A DNA stretch of 50,760 bases. It comes from Acidimicrobiaceae bacterium. GTDB lineage: Bacteria; Actinomycetota; Acidimicrobiia; Acidimicrobiales; Acidimicrobiaceae. A program made the position numbers and the translations under genes. Position 1 is the stretch's first letter, and the number at the start of each line of letters is the position of its first letter. Location of the stretch: the NCBI GenBank assembly GCA_013044385.1, contig JABEUN010000021.1, positions 1-50,760 of the forward strand, read 5' to 3'. Positions 18,170 through 25,330 of the stretch are shown piece by piece. Under the pieces are notes generated by a model. It was not told the DNA's origin, searched no databases, and worked only from the letters and a program-made list of their open reading frames with translations.

Positions 18170-18520
18170 CTGCAACCATCAGCAGTGTCAAGGATAGGTG
18201 AAGGACTGCCGAACTTATAATTTAGGCACTTTCATAATCTTCTGCCAGCCCCAACACAGAAACCTATCCTGCCTCAGTTTTTCACGCTCGAGGCGCCAGC
18301 GAGTCTGTACATCCCAAACCTTGAGCCTCGAACAGGCTATCCAGCCACCCTCAACGTTGCATGAAAGTCTTCGATTCAGCGTCATCTTCCATGCAACTCC
18401 GCAGATTCGTTCAGCCAGAAATGATGTAATGAACCGTTCATCCGGGGGAAATGGCGGAGATATACCCCACTGCGAGGATCTATCTAGAAAGTTTCATTTC
18501 GCCAAATGGGGGGTAAGCAC
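18170..18520. other. Divergent intergenic region between ABC importer and NCS1 permease
   Basis: A divergent promoter region of about 350 bases. TATAAT occurs at 18216-18221 but has no recognisable -35 at the usual distance on either strand. I looked for a thiamine-pyrophosphate or purine riboswitch because of the neighbouring transporters and found no conserved core of either. Confidence 0.4.
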
Positions 18521-20044
18521 GTGGCTGTAGACGATCCAACCAAGTTGACAACAACGAATGAGCAAGACCACCGACCTGAGGACCTCCTTTCACTCCTCGA
18601 AACCGCAGATCCGCTCGAGAGCGTCGTGCCCAGGGACCGAAGGGACGGACCGTGGAAGATGTCGCTGCTCTGGTTGACATTCCAGGCGAGCGTTTCAAAC
18701 ATGTACACCGGCTACTTGGCCCGCTCGTCGGGAATGTCGCTTTCACAGATGTTCTGGGCGTGCATAATTGCGGTGCTCGTCATGGTCGGATACGGGATGT
18801 TGGCGGCAAACGTTGGCACCGAGACTGGCCAACCGCACTCAGTTCTGGCAAGAAGCGTTCTTGGAAGGTCCGGAAGCGCGTTGGCCTCCGTGCTCTTGAT
18901 TGTGACAGGGATGGGGTGGTACGGCTTTCAGGCCGTGTTCCTTTCACTCGTCTTCAACGGTCTATTCGGCCTCACACACCTAGAGCTATTCTCTGCGCTA
19001 TTCGCCCTGGTAATGATAGTCAACAACCTCTTGGGCTTCAGGAGCGTATCCGGCTACGCCAGATACGTAGCTGCTCCGATTCTGTTGGCATGGGGCGTCT
19101 ATGCGATCATCAAGGCCTTCGCCTCCGCAGCTGGACCACACCTCTTCCAGCCTCCCCACATCGCCGTTACCCAGGGGATCCTACTTACGGTCGAGTTGCT
19201 TGTTGGGGTCGCGATGTTCGGGAACGAGCCCGACATATTTCGTCATGCCCGCAGCGACAAGGGCCACAACTTCGCATCACTAACTATCGGATATGGGGTG
19301 GGGATACTGGTATTCCCAATAGCTGGGTACCTGATGGCAGAACTCTCCGATGCGACCACGCTCGGCTCCACTATCCACTACTTCACCAAATTCTCACTGT
19401 TCGGTCTCACCGCCTTAGCTGTGGTGGTCTTCACCGTGAATCTCTTTGCGCTGAATGACGCAAATCTTTACGAGGCGGTGAATGCTGTACAGAACTTCCT
19501 AAAAGGCAAGAGGCGCGCCGAGACTGTACTGGCGCTTGGATTAGTCGGCTCATTGATTGCGATCTTGATGGAACGTTCCAACTCGATCCAGAACAACTTC
19601 TTCATCGTGGCCAACATCTGTGCAGTCTTCCTTCCCTGTACCACAATCGTGATGGCGCTCGACGTCTTCCTTTTGGAGAGGATCAGTGGCTGTCGGCGCT
19701 CAATGAGCAAAGACGGCGTCTCTTTGGCGGTCGTCAGCTGGAAAGAGGCTTCGCCCGGCAACATCGCCGGAATATTTGCGATACTCGTCGGACTAGTTGT
19801 AGGCGCCACGACTGGCGGACTCATACCTGGCACTGCAGGATTCGGCAAGACGAATATCGGCATCCCAGCACTTGAAGCATGGCTTGCAGCAAGCATCGTC
19901 TACATAGCTGCGATGTACTTTGCCAGATCCGTCAAGTCAGCATCTACACAGAGCCGCATCCTAGGACTTCCAATCGGAGCGGACAACGGTAGCTCCACAA
20001 TCATCGACCTCGAAAGGATCGGCAACAGTAGCGATGCCAATTAG
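18521..20044 (+). CDS. NCS1-family permease (cytosine/purine/allantoin type)
   Basis: A membrane protein of about 507 residues with ~12 hydrophobic segments beginning at 'WKMSLLWLTFQASVSNMYTGYLA', and the 'GWYGFQAVFLSLVFNGLFGL' and 'NDANLYEAVNAVQNFLKG' blocks that place it in the nucleobase:cation symporter-1 family. GTG 18521 is preferred because GGGGGG lies seven bases upstream; ATG 18506 is an in-frame alternative. It should import a nucleobase or related heterocycle. Its last codons overlap the downstream amidohydrolase by 11 bases, so importer and hydrolase are probably expressed together. Confidence 0.88.
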   Translation: MAVDDPTKLTTTNEQDHRPEDLLSLLETADPLESVVPRDRRDGPWKMSLLWLTFQASVSNMYTGYLARSSGMSLSQMFWACIIAVLVMVGYGMLAANVGTETGQPHSVLARSVLGRSGSALASVLLIVTGMGWYGFQAVFLSLVFNGLFGLTHLELFSALFALVMIVNNLLGFRSVSGYARYVAAPILLAWGVYAIIKAFASAAGPHLFQPPHIAVTQGILLTVELLVGVAMFGNEPDIFRHARSDKGHNFASLTIGYGVGILVFPIAGYLMAELSDATTLGSTIHYFTKFSLFGLTALAVVVFTVNLFALNDANLYEAVNAVQNFLKGKRRAETVLALGLVGSLIAILMERSNSIQNNFFIVANICAVFLPCTTIVMALDVFLLERISGCRRSMSKDGVSLAVVSWKEASPGNIAGIFAILVGLVVGATTGGLIPGTAGFGKTNIGIPALEAWLAASIVYIAAMYFARSVKSASTQSRILGLPIGADNGSSTIIDLERIGNSSDAN

Positions 20045-20990
20045 CACAACAGCAGAGCCACTCGTAGATGTACACGTGCACCTATACCCGACCAAACAGG
20101 AGGGGCAGCTCGCCAAGGATAGCTACGTCATTTGGGAGTACGGAGATGACCCTGGGGTAGAGTTCGCAACCGCTGGGGGAGATCTGGAGGATCTGACCGC
20201 CATCTACGGAAAGGGTGGTTTCACACGTGCGATCGTAGTACACCTCTTCGACACAGCCCTTGCTCGAAGAGACGCCACAGAGAGGCTCTCGATAAATAGC
20301 AAGCCAGCCGAGACGGACGCCGTCCAGGCGGAGATTCAGGTTGCCGTTGGCGAGGCGATGTTGGCATCTAACCGCTGGATTGCCTCAGTAGCGCTAAACG
20401 ATCCGCTGGTAGATGTACTGGTTTCGGTAGATCCAACGCTCCTTACACCAAAAGAGATCGCCGACCACGTAACCGACCTTGCCAAACTCGGTGTCAAAGG
20501 GATCAAATTACATCCGGTCTCCCAGGGATACCTTCCGTTCGACTCGAGGCTCCACGCAATATATGAGACCTGTAGCGACGCGGGGCTCGTCGTGCTGTCG
20601 CACTCAGGTCCAGGACACCACGGAAGCGCATCTGCCAAGCCGACCGAATTCGCATCGGTGCTCGAGAGGTGGCCAAACCTCAAACTAGTCCTGGCCCACT
20701 TGGGTGGAGCCTCCTGGCAGGAGACGCCCGCACTCGCAAAGGCATTCCCTCAAGTGATGTTTGACCTTTCCGAGATCATAGAGTGGTCCGGTGCGTCATC
20801 CGCTCCGACGCCGGATCTGATGTCCATGTTGATCAAAGAGATCGGCGTCGACCGAGTTATGATGGGCTCGGACTTTCCCTGGTACGACCCGATCCTAACG
20901 ACAGATCGTGTCATGGGTCTGCCGGGTCTCAGCACGCAGGAGAGGTCCGCTCTCTTGGGAGGCAACGCGGCGAGGGTCTTCGACATCTGA
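20034..20990 (+). CDS. Amidohydrolase-family metal-dependent hydrolase
   Basis: A 318-residue amidohydrolase-2 type TIM barrel. Metal-binding candidates are H14 and H16 in 'VDVHVHLYP', the His of 'GIKLHPVSQGY', 'LSHSG', 'LAHLGG' and the Asp of 'MGSDFPWYDP', in the family order. Such enzymes hydrolyse or decarboxylate cyclic and aromatic acids. Its overlap with the NCS1 permease gene suggests that it acts on the imported compound, perhaps a pyrimidine or hydantoin derivative; this is inference from context only. Confidence 0.85.
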   Translation: MPISTTAEPLVDVHVHLYPTKQEGQLAKDSYVIWEYGDDPGVEFATAGGDLEDLTAIYGKGGFTRAIVVHLFDTALARRDATERLSINSKPAETDAVQAEIQVAVGEAMLASNRWIASVALNDPLVDVLVSVDPTLLTPKEIADHVTDLAKLGVKGIKLHPVSQGYLPFDSRLHAIYETCSDAGLVVLSHSGPGHHGSASAKPTEFASVLERWPNLKLVLAHLGGASWQETPALAKAFPQVMFDLSEIIEWSGASSAPTPDLMSMLIKEIGVDRVMMGSDFPWYDPILTTDRVMGLPGLSTQERSALLGGNAARVFDI

Positions 20991-21381: not shown

Positions 21382-23028
21382 TCATCCGTGGATGGCCACC
21401 TCCACAATCTTCACTACGACCAGAGCGAACGCAACGAACAGGTAACCTCGAAGCGTCAAAAGTCCGATCTTCCTCTGAGTGGACATCACCGGCGTCTTGA
21501 GCGTTGCGAGGTTTGGCATCCGCCAGGTCTGTCGATCGAGCTTCTCGAAGATTTCTACGTCACCGCTCCTATCGCCATAGCGAGACTGGAACAGCAGAAA
21601 CGCACCGACGATTAGGCCGACTACTATCCCTCCCCCCATCACCGCCTCGATCTGGGTACTCGAAATATTCGGGAAGAGTACGCTTGCGGTAAGGATGATT
21701 GAGAGCAGTACCAGCACCCAGATGATTGCCGACGTCAGTATATTTAGCTTCTTCCCATTCACCCAAGGGCCGAGCACCTCCTTGTCGTTGCTCAGGAGCA
21801 TCAAGAAGACCACCGCACTAGGCAGGAGTACGCCTGCAAGTGTCTGGACTCCCTCGGTCAGCAGTCCAAGGGGCACACCTGGAATTATCACTAGAGCAGC
21901 GGAGAGTGCCATCAACCCGGCGTAGACGGCATAGAAACCCTTCGCCTTCGTCACGGGACGGTGCAGTGAGTGGTTCACGCCTAACACATCGGAACTGGCA
22001 TAAGCAGTTGCGAGACCAACCGCGGCCGCACCGATAATACTTGCATCGAGCAACGCAATGGCGAAGAGATCTCCGGCTACGTGGGACACGTACTTGCCGA
22101 GTCCAGCAGCGACTCCGGCAGCAGATGTGAAGTCACCGAAACCCGGTCTGCCAGCGAACACCGCAGATGAAAAGCCGAACATTGCGGCTGCGCCTAGCAC
22201 GACAATGCCAATACCGATCCAGAGGTCTGTCCGCTCGTAGTTTATGAATCTGGGGGTAATTCTCTTGTCGATGACGTAAGACTGCTGGAAGAAGAGCTGC
22301 CATGGGGCAACCGTCGTACCAATAATTCCGATGATCAAAAGCATGACCGTCGAAACCTGTGCACCGTGGGGGAAACCCGGGATGACGAAGTTGTGGACCA
22401 TCTGGCCGACAGGCGGATGCACCATCAAATAGATCGGAATGAGTATCAGCGAACCCGCCACCAAGGTCAAGCTGACACGCTCGAAACGCCGAAAGCTTCC
22501 CGTGCTTGCAGCCCCGACGACGGCGACCGCAGCAACGATGACCGACGGAATCTTCGGCAGCCCGAGATAGCCGGTCGCAAGTGTTACACCGATGAACTCG
22601 GTGACTATCGTCAAGGCATTCAAAATGAACAGGTCGATGACACTGAATGCGCCCCAAAATTTCCCGAACCGCTCAAGGATGAGTCTGGCATGGCCCACAC
22701 CTGAGACAGCTCCAAGTCGAAGAACCATCTCCTGGCTGACATACAATACCGGAACGAGTAGTAGCAGGGTCCACAGCAGATGGGTTCCGTAGTCCTGGCC
22801 CGCTTGGGTGTAGGTACCGAACGCTCCGGCGTCGTTATCGCCTACCATGACGATCAGGCCCGGACCAACGATTGCTAAAAGTGTCTTCAACTTCGCTGAA
22901 AGGTGCCGACGAGGCGACACATCACCGAGCGCGATTGTGCCTAGTGCGCCTCGGATATCACCAACGTGTGCACTGTCGAGGGCGGCAGTCGAACTCTCGA
23001 ACGAATCTATGTTGATCTCAGCAGGCAT
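21382..23028 (-). CDS. Nramp-related divalent metal transporter
   Basis: A 548-residue membrane protein with about 12 helices of the SLC11/Nramp fold. In helix 1 the canonical DPGN is replaced by DNDAG ('MVGDNDAGAFGTYTQAG', residues 61-77), and in helix 6 the MPH motif reads APWQ (241-244, 'IGTTVAPWQLFFQQS'). Loss of the soft-metal methionine is the mark of Nramp-related magnesium transporters (NRMTs), so Mg2+ import is at least as likely as Mn2+/Fe2+. ATG 23028 is chosen because a well-initiated leader ORF ends across it (11-base overlap); the frame is open to TTG 23130. It lacks its own Shine-Dalgarno, in keeping with translational coupling. It lies downstream of cysK-cysE after a long leader. 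Confidence 0.88.
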   Translation of the reverse strand: MPAEINIDSFESSTAALDSAHVGDIRGALGTIALGDVSPRRHLSAKLKTLLAIVGPGLIVMVGDNDAGAFGTYTQAGQDYGTHLLWTLLLLVPVLYVSQEMVLRLGAVSGVGHARLILERFGKFWGAFSVIDLFILNALTIVTEFIGVTLATGYLGLPKIPSVIVAAVAVVGAASTGSFRRFERVSLTLVAGSLILIPIYLMVHPPVGQMVHNFVIPGFPHGAQVSTVMLLIIGIIGTTVAPWQLFFQQSYVIDKRITPRFINYERTDLWIGIGIVVLGAAAMFGFSSAVFAGRPGFGDFTSAAGVAAGLGKYVSHVAGDLFAIALLDASIIGAAAVGLATAYASSDVLGVNHSLHRPVTKAKGFYAVYAGLMALSAALVIIPGVPLGLLTEGVQTLAGVLLPSAVVFLMLLSNDKEVLGPWVNGKKLNILTSAIIWVLVLLSIILTASVLFPNISSTQIEAVMGGGIVVGLIVGAFLLFQSRYGDRSGDVEIFEKLDRQTWRMPNLATLKTPVMSTQRKIGLLTLRGYLFVAFALVVVKIVEVAIHG

Positions 23029-23152
23029 CGGAGGCACCGCCCAACACATGTCGAGGCGAGCAATCAGACAGCGGTCTGCTCTTGGCGTAGTACAAAACGT
23101 ACTGTTCCGTAACCCGAAGTTCATGCGCAATGTAAGTATTGAATTGAAACAT
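23018..23152 (-). CDS. 44-residue leader ORF overlapping the Nramp start
   Basis: ATG 23152 is preceded by an A-rich tract and AGAGGAG six bases upstream, the best ribosome binding site of this part of the window. The peptide begins 'MFQFNTYIAHELRVTEQYVLYYAK' and ends 'GGASDAC'. Its TGA lies inside the first codons of the Nramp gene (ATGCCTGCTGA, minus strand), so ribosomes finishing here could reinitiate at the transporter ATG. No family is recognised. It may be a regulatory leader peptide or simply the loading site for the transporter. Confidence 0.6.
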   Translation of the reverse strand: MFQFNTYIAHELRVTEQYVLYYAKSRPLSDCSPRHVLGGASDAC

Positions 23153-23692
23153 GGAGATCTCCTCTTTTTTTTCTTTCAACCTGCGCTCCGAAAAGAGCGC
23201 GACACGATCCACTGAATTGTTGAAATACATACCGAGGTGGCGACTTAGAGTCGCTTGCGAACATTTACTCGGTGAACGCGGCAATCTCTACGAATCGAAA
23301 AGCCACGAGACACCCGACGCGCGCGAACTCTGGGTAGTTGAATCCCTACCGATTAAAAGACTTCGAAACGGGCCGATTAGCCGTTCTGTTTCGAATTCTG
23401 AGCCGCCATCGGTGAGCAGCAGGTACTCGGAGGTTCAGATTTCATCAGTGCTCACCTCCCTGTCGGTCACGGCACTCCAAGCGCCAAAACAACGGGCAAA
23501 AACCCAGCTAAATCGACAAAGTGCTCATGGTCATCATACCTCAATGGCACTTTACCTAGGCCAGAGTCGAGACCCCTGTCACAGTTATTAATGGTCCGAT
23601 CTGCATACCGTTCACCGTTTCGCCAATGGAGCACAGGCCCGTGACATTCACCAATTACCAGTTTTGTCCCGGCCGGTTCGACAAAGAAGACG
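23153..23692 (-). promoter_or_regulatory. Long structured 5' leader of the Nramp operon (candidate cis-regulatory RNA)
   Basis: 540 bases between the cysE stop and the leader ORF contain no gene but four perfect inverted repeats: 23450-23456 with 23411-23417 (7 bp); 23388-23395 with 23362-23369 (8 bp); 23268-23273 with 23231-23236 (6 bp) enclosing 23249-23254 with 23240-23245 (6 bp); and 23195-23200 with 23183-23188 (6 bp), the last just before the A-rich ribosome binding region. Such density upstream of a metal transporter suggests a sensing leader. I could not match it to the yybP-ykoY (Mn2+) or M-box (Mg2+) consensus. The Nramp promoter should also be here. Confidence 0.45.
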
Positions 23693-24394
23693 CTAGATGG
23701 AGAAGTCCTCGCCTCGCCAGCTACCGTCTTGCCCCGACCTGTTGCCGCTGAGCGATACGTGGCCAACGAGACTGGCTTCTAGTTCGTCCAATCTGGACTG
23801 AAGTGTGTGAAGGCCAGCACCGAGGACGTCCGGCAGAACCGACCCATCGAGATCCGGCTTTGCAAACTTCGAGCGGGGATGGCTCCTAGCGACGACTTGA
23901 CCAGGTATCCCCACGACCACGGAGTTGCTCGGCACCGGCTTGACGACGACAGCATTTGCACCAATTCTGCTGTCGTCGCCAATAAACAGTGGGCCGAGTA
24001 TCTTCGCACCCGCGCCGACTGTAACACGGTCACCTAGGGTCGGATGGCGCTTGCCCCTGTCAAATCCTCGTCCACCTAGTGTGACTCCATGAAAGATCGT
24101 GACATCTTCGCCGGTCTCGGCGGTCTCACCGATCACCACACCTGAGGCATGGTCGATGAAAAGTCCCGGTCCCAAATTAGCTCCCGGATGGATGTCCACA
24201 TTCGTCCAAGTGCGGGTAAGGGCAGATATCGTCCTGGCTGGGAACTTATACCCTCTCTCCCAAAGAGCATGTGCTATCCGGTGCATCACTAGCGCGTGGA
24301 AACCCGGATACAAAAGGACTACCTCGAGTCGGCTTCTCGCAGCGGGATCTCGGGCAAGTACTGCGTCGAGATCCCTCCTAAGTGTTGCGAGCAA
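23693..24394 (-). CDS. cysE: Serine O-acetyltransferase
   Basis: A 233-residue enzyme that acetylates serine with acetyl-CoA, the first step of cysteine synthesis. The N-terminal helical part ('[28 protein letters not shown]') is followed by the left-handed beta-helix of hexapeptide repeats with the active-site motif '[29 protein letters not shown]' and '[15 protein letters not shown]'. The C-terminus is about 35 residues longer than the short actinobacterial/Bacillus-type enzyme and ends in a Gly/Ser-rich tail rather than the usual Ile, so complex formation with CysK may differ, although the very last residue is Ile. Start TTG 24394 has GGAG eight bases upstream and lies three bases after the cysK stop. 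Confidence 0.93.
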
Positions 24395-24397
24395 CTT

Positions 24398-25330
24398 CTA
24401 ATCTCCGAGACCCGCATACAGCGGGGTGGAGAGATACCGCTCACCGAAACTTGGCACTATAACCACGATCGTCTTGCCCGCGGCCTCGGGCCGTTTTGCG
24501 ACTTGGATTGCTGACCAGATAGCCGCGCCAGAAGAGATTCCGACCAGCAGGCCCTCCTTGGCGGCCACGGCCCTTGCCGTCTCAAACGCATCGTCGGCCG
24601 AGACTTGGATGACTTCGTCTACTACCGACGCCTCGTAGTTGCCCGGGATGAACCCGGCACCAATTCCCTGTATTGGATGCGGACCCTTCTGCCCGCCGGA
24701 CAGTACCGGAGAAGCAGAGGGCTCAACTGCGATGATCTTCACTGACGGCTTGTGTTCTTTCAGGTATTCTCCGACACCCGAAATGGTCCCTCCAGTGCCA
24801 ACTCCCGCGATTAAGTAGTCGACTCCCCCATCGGTGTCGTTCCATATCTCAACCGCGGTAGTCGCCTTATGTATGGCGGGGTTGGAGGGGTTCTCGAACT
24901 GCTGCGGCATGAAGTAGGTCGGGTTCTCCTTTACCAGGGCCTCGGCCCGTGCAATTGCTCCACCCATGCCGTCGGGTCCAGGCGTGAGGATCAGCTCTGC
25001 GCCATATGCACGGAGCAGTATGCGCCTCTCCTTGCTCATCGTTTCCGGCATAGTGAGAATGCACTTATATCCTCTTGCTGCGCAGACCATCGCAAGGGCG
25101 ATACCAGTGTTACCACTGGTCGGCTCCACTATGGTGGAATCCGGTCCGATCAATCCAGCCTTTTCGGCAGCGTCGATCATCGCAACGCCGATCCTGTCTT
25201 TGACGCTGTGTGCAGGGTTGAAGTACTCGAGCTTCGCCACTACCTGGCCTGCGGCTCCATCGGTCACTCGCCTCAGTCGAACGAGCGGGGTATTTCCGAC
25301 CAGTTGAGTAACGTCGTCTGCAATCTTCAT
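24398..25330 (-). CDS. cysK: Cysteine synthase A (O-acetylserine sulfhydrylase)
   Basis: A 310-residue PLP enzyme that replaces the acetyl group of O-acetylserine with sulfide. The PLP lysine is in '[11 protein letters not shown]', the substrate loop in '[12 protein letters not shown]', and the phosphate-binding glycine loop in '[12 protein letters not shown]'. Standard length and start (ATG 25330, AAAGGCGG upstream). It forms an operon with cysE, giving both steps from serine to cysteine. A strong palindrome about 65 bases upstream (25394-25419) is a candidate operator for sulfur-dependent control. Confidence 0.95.

Follow-up and report, generated by a model that had tools for sequence, protein, structure and literature searches.

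The window analysed here, a stretch of 50,760 nucleotides from an Acidimicrobiaceae bacterium, carries an NRMT-like transporter gene (Nramp-related magnesium transporter; 21382..23028 (-)), whose 548-aa product matches Pfam Nramp at 8.2e-75. Upstream on the same strand lies cysE/epsC, encoding serine O-acetyltransferase (23693..24394 (-); NCBIfam TIGR01172, NF041874), followed by the cysteine synthase gene cysK (24398..25330 (-); NCBIfam TIGR01139). An earlier note on this DNA had singled out the leader in front of the transporter, and much of what it described is there: a 44-codon ORF, here uORF2, at exactly 23018..23152 (-), which ends in ..LSDCSPRHVLGGASDAC and is preceded by the Shine-Dalgarno sequence AGAGGAG (23159..23165 (-)); an overlap, in ATGCCTGCTGA, between the stop of that ORF and the transporter ATG at 23028; and a transporter ATG without a preceding Shine-Dalgarno sequence of its own (CATGTGTTGGGCGGTGCCTCCG). 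The end of cysE and uORF2 are separated by 540 bases, the length that the note had given, but these are not wholly non-coding: they hold a second ORF, which the note missed. This uORF1 (23377..23445 (-); MKSEPPSTCCSPMAAQNSKQNG) has 22 codons, a Glu-Pro-Pro-Ser(AGT)-Thr core and its own Shine-Dalgarno sequence, GGAGGTG (23453..23459 (-)).

The best solved relative of the transporter is 7qia (174 bits, 3.6e-50), which corresponds to EleNRMT (PMC8806188). Among the matches listed, the next solved relative reaches 57 bits (1.6e-14) and every MntH scores below 7qia; by this measure the protein is nearer to EleNRMT than to MntH or DMT. NRMTs are described as carrying DxxG in helix 1 and TxxA/T in helix 6, without the methionine of AxxM (PMC8806188). 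The helix 6 motif is present in the window transporter (T238-T-V-A241, no AxxM methionine), whereas helix 1 reads D66-A-G-A69, that is, DxxA; DAGA recurs in L003, L004 and L005, and the other seven aligned relatives have DAGG. It is because of this substitution that we label the gene NRMT-like, the cited NRMT features otherwise being in agreement. The metal carried is probably Mg2+, a cargo suggested by the NRMT-like character of the transporter, by the lack of any CorA or MgtE match in the window's own genome (95%-complete) and by the related leaders that accompany M-boxes at other NRMT genes. Counting against Mg2+ is one NrmT without an M-box, which was reported to carry mainly Mn2+ (PMC4072509).

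uORF2 has clear homologues in the three nearest orthologues (L003, L004 and L139), where it likewise overlaps the NRMT start, and a doubtful one at L060. Its length stays within 42-44 codons and its SPRHV end is conserved, with purifying selection on the 3' segment: over the conserved 12-codon segment, three window pairs give pN of 0.04-0.10 vs pS of 0.36-0.59. A protein-versus-genome search across 42 family genomes matched four: the window and three weak hits (E 0.02-0.23), among them the genuine homologue at L004. A DNA search yielded one clearly orthologous match outside the window (G006, E 6.6e-4), and NCBIfam has no name for the window uORF2.

uORF1 is conserved more widely than uORF2, with counterparts at L003, L004, L139, L005, L140, L110, L118, L022 and L024-L031. 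In relatives of uORF1 the Shine-Dalgarno sequence keeps its position, being weak in L060; the Pro codons differ at the third base among the nearest orthologues, and every member of the EPPS group carries the AGT codon (18/18). The window version, SEPPS, has one acidic residue and two prolines and contains no EPDP as such. For none of the 10 leader peptides searched does NCBIfam offer a name.

Defined by a Shine-Dalgarno sequence, a Ser/Pro-rich start and an in-frame AGT serine codon, uORF1-type ORFs lie upstream of 69 of 109 NRMT genes vs 1.9 expected, a count from the same loci that had been inspected before the motif was defined; controls gave 0/109 on the opposite strand and 1/105 downstream. 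A first test on new loci found the type at 1/16 (0.25 expected), and 13 of those 16 have NRMT directly behind a CBS-domain gene, a layout mostly without the uORF (1/22, plus five with non-standard starts). With criteria written beforehand, plasmid loci returned the type at 6/17 vs 0.27 expected, 17 of 39 records having been sampled, roughly one for each genus or species; the distance limit had been raised from 550 to 650 bases after the 1/16 test and before the plasmid test, which brought in L184 and L185. Where no CBS gene lies upstream (105 loci), 27 loci lack such an ORF and in five the only one has a non-standard start; CBS genes were identified with a permissive pattern or by visual inspection. 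In CBS-NRMT operons the leader might instead sit ahead of the CBS gene, but this was rejected: 12 stretches, each about 3.1 kb long and extending past that gene on its upstream side, held no motif uORF (at L186 the frame named as CBS is another gene, and the whole stretch was still scanned). Duplicates were removed from the counts (L141 of L110, L059 of L004, L076 of L066), as was L023, with 97 bases upstream; L182, at a contig end, was left out of the CBS/M-box layout count, and L052-L054 and the paralogue L002 went unused.

The codon pattern within these ORFs is pronounced. When uORFs were chosen blind by Shine-Dalgarno strength, AGT stood in frame 122 times and out of frame seven times. Of AGY codons, 107/124 are AGT vs 161/926. 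Compared with NRMT genes, uORF residues 2-13 are rich in Ser (24.7% vs 5.0%), Pro (18.8% vs 4.2%) and Cys (5.9% vs 0.5%). Tails and lengths vary between groups and only the start pattern recurs, while within Streptomyces the tail (..SSGTR or similar) is conserved as well as the start. One Streptomyces uORF of this type, with an M-box, reads MDCSSSSPGHSRP.

The type is found at 32 of 35 M-box-led NRMT loci, a figure that stood at 30/33 until L184 and L185, first scored as having no M-box, proved M-box-positive. The M-box scan covered 80/80 named loci and 40 further ones; L173, L176, L177, L179 and L180, which were unscanned, entered the layout count as 'no M-box', and the status of L167, L174 and L183 was assigned by position. 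uORF1-type ORFs also occur downstream of M-boxes that precede PPE-like genes (L163, L164). In the window, covariance-model searches found no M-box (RF00380), no yybP-ykoY and no other Rfam riboswitch; the window's own genome, searched with stricter filters, likewise gave no M-box match.

The leader is real and looks regulatory. Sequence comparison establishes both ORFs with their conservation, codon-level constraint and position, the NRMT relationship of the gene and the co-occurrence of uORF1-type ORFs with M-boxes. We favor, with moderate confidence and on the strength of sequence comparison, a reading of it as a two-uORF, MgtL-like, translation-based Mg2+ control region of the NRMT-like gene. 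uORF1 would be translated in the cell as a leader peptide of the MgtL kind, and at low Mg2+ its early Glu-Pro-Pro-Ser(AGU) codons would make ribosomes slow down or abort. Slowed or aborted ribosomes could then alter leader folding or Rho access, such that transcription and translation reach NRMT; the downstream switch may work through Rho, attenuation or Shine-Dalgarno exposure. Ribosomes on uORF2 would terminate at the NRMT start codon, itself lacking a Shine-Dalgarno sequence, and hand over by translational coupling. More broadly, uORF1 is one of a widespread group of Ser/Pro-rich leader peptides, apparently not described before, through which the translating ribosome probably senses Mg2+ and controls its uptake. 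A more ambitious proposal, which we regard as tentative, is that a single Mg2+-linked leader class spans Actinomycetota and Pseudomonadota, with an early Ser(AGU)-Pro stretch sensing Mg2+ through slow or aborted AGU/Pro decoding, with or without an M-box. This class would include the mycobacterial Rv1805A uORF, and the window would represent an M-box-free state in which the peptide acts alone, with a second, coupled uORF added.

The earlier note saw in the same leader a cis-regulatory RNA with a coupled ORF ahead of a divalent-metal transporter, and proposed a structured metal-sensing riboswitch, perhaps of a new class. The leader and its conserved ORF stand, but the riboswitch is unsupported, and we consider it highly improbable. 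The metal-transporter context speaks for it, as do perfect inverted repeats of the kind that the note had pointed out, which number 10 vs 3.9 in shuffles (P 0.003; arms of at least 6, loops of 3-40). One hairpin, GGTGAGCA/TGCTCACC (23411..23456 (-); arms 23456-23449/23418-23411), spans the uORF1 Shine-Dalgarno sequence, start and first codons, with an alternative pairing of GGAGGT from the Shine-Dalgarno sequence with ACCTCC from the Glu-Pro-Pro codons; another, TTCGAAAC/GTTTCGAA (23362..23395 (-); arms 23395-23388/23369-23362), covers the uORF1 3' end and stop and is followed by GTCTTTT; further repeats are GCGCTC/GAGCGC and GCGACT/AGTCGC. Against a riboswitch, the window has no Rfam match at gathering, just three chance-level snoRNA/UTR matches at E 1.3 or worse, and the fold of the whole leader is not clearly beyond chance (z -1.36; 9/100 shuffles equally or more stable). 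The note had staked its proposal on conservation in orthologues, where the leader ORF is kept but the hairpins mostly are not: in the alignment with L003, L004 and L139, which are the closest orthologues sharing this layout, the sole conserved helix joins the uORF1 Shine-Dalgarno sequence to the Glu-Pro-Pro codons, and the others, including TTCGAAAC/GTTTCGAA, are not conserved. The window uORF1 Shine-Dalgarno sequence is paired with probability 0.98, which 8/60 shuffles equal. General occlusion of the Shine-Dalgarno sequence by the uORF1 coding region was rejected (mean rank 0.45 over 41 loci, no excess over shuffles), and the window leader, with C/G of 0.57-1.24 over 80-base windows, has no evident C-rich, G-poor, rut-like stretch.

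An RNA-level role for the AGT trinucleotides, as a structure or protein site that falls inside a short ORF by chance, also seems very unlikely: while the invariant AGT codon of the EPPS group and the pairing of AGTCC with GGACT in some predicted Streptomyces folds (L067, L070) would suit it, 122 of 129 AGTs share the reading frame of the start despite their varying distance from it, and third-base changes occur in the Pro codons. The bias toward AGT among AGY codons would be unexpected were the peptides selected purely as products, which bears on the view that uORF1 and uORF2 are functional small proteins acting in trans, for instance on the transporter, with leader control secondary. We hold this unlikely, since uORF1 tails and lengths differ across groups and the start pattern alone recurs, even though uORF2, at 42-44 codons, has a conserved SPRHV end subject to purifying selection, the Streptomyces uORF1 tails are well kept, a peptide role has been suggested for mycobacterial Rv1805A (PMC12810186) and MgtR and MgtU are known regulatory peptides (PMC8092293). 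Quite unlikely, too, is amino-acid attenuation, in which the leader would read charging of tRNA-Ser (AGU/AGC), tRNA-Cys or tRNA-Pro and not Mg2+. It would account for the enrichment of Ser, Pro and Cys and the dominance of one rare serine codon, fits the adjoining cysK and cysE, and has a parallel in Salmonella mgtP, which responds to charged tRNA-Pro (PMC8092293); yet leaders of this type occur with Mg2+ M-boxes and in front of both NRMT and PPE-like genes, and in the plasmid loci with annotation (13 of 17) no cys gene is listed within 1.5 kb.

Known systems offer close parallels to the Mg2+ control reading. In MgtL of mgtA (Escherichia coli, Salmonella), a short uORF with early acidic and proline residues ahead of a Mg2+ importer gene, ribosome drop-off at EPDP in low Mg2+ turns mgtA on (PMC11282234); the window similarly places a short uORF with a Shine-Dalgarno sequence ahead of a putative Mg2+ transporter gene, and the Burkholderiales NRMT uORFs, which read MPDPEP.., come near to EPDP. 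Unlike MgtL, the window combines another transporter class with EPPS bearing an AGT serine codon and a second uORF that overlaps the gene. The mgtQ uORF before mgtB is also short, with ribosome-destabilising residues, and affects translation of a Mg2+ transporter, but has 8 codons with Asp2/Glu5 and is intergenic in Salmonella mgtCBRU (PMC8092293). NrmT of Clostridium acetobutylicum belongs to the same transporter branch as the window gene and is under M-box control (PMC4072509), whereas the window genome gave no M-box match.

The Mg2+-responsive leader peptides in the literature covered here are enterobacterial (mgtA, corA, mgtB), and among the matches listed from open-licence PMC literature no paper concerned uORFs of NRMT genes or an AGU leader signature. 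If the leader type does occur at NRMT genes in two phyla with its AGU signature, the generality of ribosome-based Mg2+ sensing becomes testable, and the uORF1 type could serve as a marker of Mg2+-regulated NRMT genes. It would also furnish a concrete hypothesis for the unexplained uORF after mycobacterial M-boxes, Rv1805A/uORF2, a short ORF with its own Shine-Dalgarno sequence and a proline at residue 7, whose peptide the paper calls mycobacteria-specific, leaving its role open (PMC12810186). Rv1805A follows an M-box, whereas none was found in the window, and its putative kinship to the EPPS uORFs is one of pattern. In mycobacterium-like genomes, ORFs ahead of PPE-like genes begin MSPGDSPY.. 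and MSPDDSPY..

On the minus strand, the window reads cysK (25330-24398), cysE (24394-23693), a leader of 664 bases and an Nramp-like gene (23028-21382). The 44-codon leader ORF described in the earlier note, uORF2, lies exactly where it was placed (23152-23018, minus strand) with AGAGGAG in front; its TGA overlaps the transporter ATG, which, as claimed, lacks a Shine-Dalgarno (SD) sequence of its own. The upstream stretch reported as 540 non-coding bases, on the other hand, contains a 22-codon ORF, uORF1 (23445-23377, minus strand; product MKSEPPSTCCSPMAAQNSKQNG), which begins GGAGGTGAGCACTG-ATG AAA TCT GAA CCT CCG AGT ACC. The inverted repeats exist and outnumber those in shuffled sequence (10 perfect repeats with arms of at least 6 bases versus 3.9, P 0.003), but the fold of the entire leader is only slightly more stable than those of shuffles (z -1.36). 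The proposal of a new metal riboswitch is not supported: an Rfam search of the window returned no matches at the gathering threshold and, at E 10, three snoRNA/UTR matches only, each at E 1.3 or worse. The earlier finding is real in part, and its most telling element is another ORF, uORF1. On the plus strand, at 18506-20990, a cytosine/purine-type permease gene (PF02133) overlapping an amidohydrolase gene (PF04909) converges on the transporter gene.

Both leader ORFs are present in the nearest orthologous loci of Nramp-related magnesium transporters (NRMTs): L003 (NRMT identity 88%; uORF1 MKLEPPSTWRSPASAQVLIHIG, second ORF of 43 codons), L004 (86%; MNSEPPSPWRSPAPD.., 43 codons) and L139 (78%; MKSDPPSTWRLRPAL, 42 codons). 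In these three and the window, the uORF2 stop lies at the NRMT start, and L[SF]D[CR]SPRHV[LM].G recurs near the uORF2 C-terminal end. The 12-codon segment with this motif gave pN of 0.04-0.10 and pS of 0.36-0.59 in the three pairs with the window; across the whole ORF, L003 versus L004 gave pN 0.21 and pS 0.45, and in the two alternative frames pS did not exceed pN. From these four sequences and small numbers, uORF2 looks like a translated, selected ORF. Further out, L005 (75%) and L140 (74%) have uORF1 and lack uORF2. At L060 (75%), MKPPSTRPVTP.., identified by eye, starts with CTG behind a weak SD, and a 44-codon ORF whose homology to uORF2 is doubtful overlaps the NRMT start.

The AGT serine codon of uORF1 is kept in 18/18 members of the EPPS group, whose proline codons differ at the third base. 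We scanned 109 loci (the window, 30 relatives and 78 of an 80-locus set) for an ORF with an SD of at least 5, an ATG, GTG or TTG start, and AGT in frame among codons 2-10 with a proline close by. Such an ORF precedes 69 of the 109 NRMT genes, where dinucleotide shuffles predict 1.9; the opposite strand gave 0/109 and the region 3' of NRMT 1/105. Going by our reading of the sequence-record labels, matches comprise 39/44 Actinobacteria, 13/34 Proteobacteria, most of whose loci therefore lack such a uORF, and 17/31 others (the window and its 30 relatives). When one ORF per locus was picked blindly by SD strength alone, 84 loci supplied one, with AGT in codons 2-13 in 60; AGT occurred 122 times in frame and 7 times out of frame, and made up 120/213 serine codons versus 161/2891 in NRMT genes. 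Among AGY codons, its share was 107/124 in uORFs with an SD of at least 6 versus 161/926 in NRMT genes. Other amino acids shift toward T-ending codons too, but more weakly. At residues 2-13, uORFs contain 24.7% serine and 18.8% proline (NRMT genes, 5.0% and 4.2%). Loci L006, L008, L009, L010 and L014-L017 carry uORF1-like ORFs after a good SD that would require an ATT start, among them ATT TTA CCC TCA AGT AGC TGG and ATT AAA CCC CCA AGT CTG TGG.

Loci outside this set served as tests. In a phylum-wide sample, just 1 of 16 new loci had a matching uORF within 550 bases (0.25 expected); 13, including the sole match, L181, have a CBS-domain gene directly upstream, L182 lies at a contig end, and L184 and L185 carry a uORF at -560 and -583, beyond that limit, each with an M-box (Mg2+ riboswitch). 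Twelve stretches extending upstream of CBS genes held no motif ORFs. With the limit widened to 650 and 127 loci counted, a uORF was found in 73/105 loci without an upstream CBS gene versus 1/22 with one; non-standard starts added five in each class, leaving none in 27/105 and 16/22, respectively. Plasmid-borne loci, scanned with the criterion fixed beforehand, matched in 6 of 17 cases versus 0.27 expected; the 11 misses include three with an upstream CBS gene (L215-L217, L216 by eye) and two, L208 and L211, with an MPDPEP form without AGT. These two and L103, L108 and L119, all Burkholderiales, show another two-uORF layout, MPDPEP.. and a 49-codon ORF (MxFALLVSQLPxxxEAR..) with an SD of its own. 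On plasmids, a CBS-domain gene comes just after NRMT in L201, L202, L204 and L205 and before it in L215, and an MgtC/SapB gene occurs at L202 and L215. Very short ORFs with similar ends (MSRRHASGHVLRGPF, MHCRHLSRHVQRGTF, MAAPRRPVQRGSF) come directly after the CBS stop, ahead of NRMT, in L177, L178 and L168, and behind the CBS gene in L011, L012 and L013 an SD-led, CTG-started SADRG.P..P.AP.. ORF without AGT precedes NRMT, accompanied in L012 by an M-box.

M-boxes lie upstream of NRMT in 30/80 loci of the 80-locus set and in 1/20 and 2/20 of two further sets; three more loci were assigned by position from the phylum-sample scan, which found M-boxes in 21/296 genomes. Once the duplicate L076 is removed, 32 of the 35 M-box NRMT loci have a uORF, the exceptions under the scan criterion being L012, L095 and L167. 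Of the uORF-bearing loci near the window, most lack an M-box, and the scan was negative at L003, L004, L005, L139, L140, L060, L110 and L118. A second M-box lies near the NRMT M-box in L090 (949-1126, minus strand) and L113 (1161-1337, plus strand). In mycobacterium-like genomes, SD-led uORFs such as MSPGDSPYSRS.. follow the M-box by ~90 bases; M-box and uORF together precede NRMT in L165/L174 and L166/L183 and, in L163 and L164, genes judged by eye to be PPE-like. Several other phylum-sample M-box loci gave no such ORF in the uORF scan. In these mycobacterium-like uORFs, residue 7 is a proline, a feature also reported for the published uORF2/Rv1805A, a peptide described by its authors as mycobacteria-specific and of open function (PMC12810186). 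Set beside that description, our loci suggest a leader type that reaches beyond mycobacteria.

Known leader peptides offer a template for how uORF1 might act. For MgtL of mgtA, low Mg2+ is described as causing ribosome drop-off at EPDP and leaving a Rho terminator inaccessible (PMC11282234); proline and acidic residues are reported to matter in the mgtA leader uORF, and corL of corA to behave in a similar way (PMC11552253), and mgtQ is reported to affect mgtB translation (PMC8092293). uORF1 matches this template in its position and its SD, and it carries an early Glu-Pro-Pro and has relatives with MPDPEP; its AGT signature is additional. By this likeness, the window leader most likely works in the manner of an MgtL-type leader. 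Low Mg2+ would probably cause ribosomes to drop off within uORF1, as described for MgtL at EPDP. AGU codons might, as a guess, be decoded slowly, and uORF2 would pass ribosomes on to the SD-less NRMT start. The sole helix kept in the closest four leaders pairs the uORF1 SD, GGAGGU, with ACCUCC from the Glu-Pro-Pro codons and shows no covariation; over 41 loci, occlusion of the uORF1 SD did not exceed that in shuffles.

The transporter itself carries a Pfam Nramp domain (8.2e-75), and its closest solved protein is 7qia (E 3.6e-50, 174 bits; runner-up 57 bits), described as the Eggerthella lenta Nramp-related magnesium transporter EleNRMT (PMC8806188). The NRMT motif of helix 6, TxxA, is present (T238-A241); that of helix 1, DxxG, is replaced by DxxA, and we therefore label the protein NRMT-like. 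DxxA is shared with L003, L004 and L005; the remaining seven relatives in the alignment read DAGG. The window's own genome (95% complete) yielded no match to CorA or MgtE and no M-box, which, together with the relationship to EleNRMT, makes Mg2+ the likely cargo. One tested NrmT without an M-box, however, is reported to have transported mainly Mn2+ (PMC4072509). At L141/L110, the NRMT N-terminus carries tandem in-frame TAGAAVLD copies before the AVLDT.H region.
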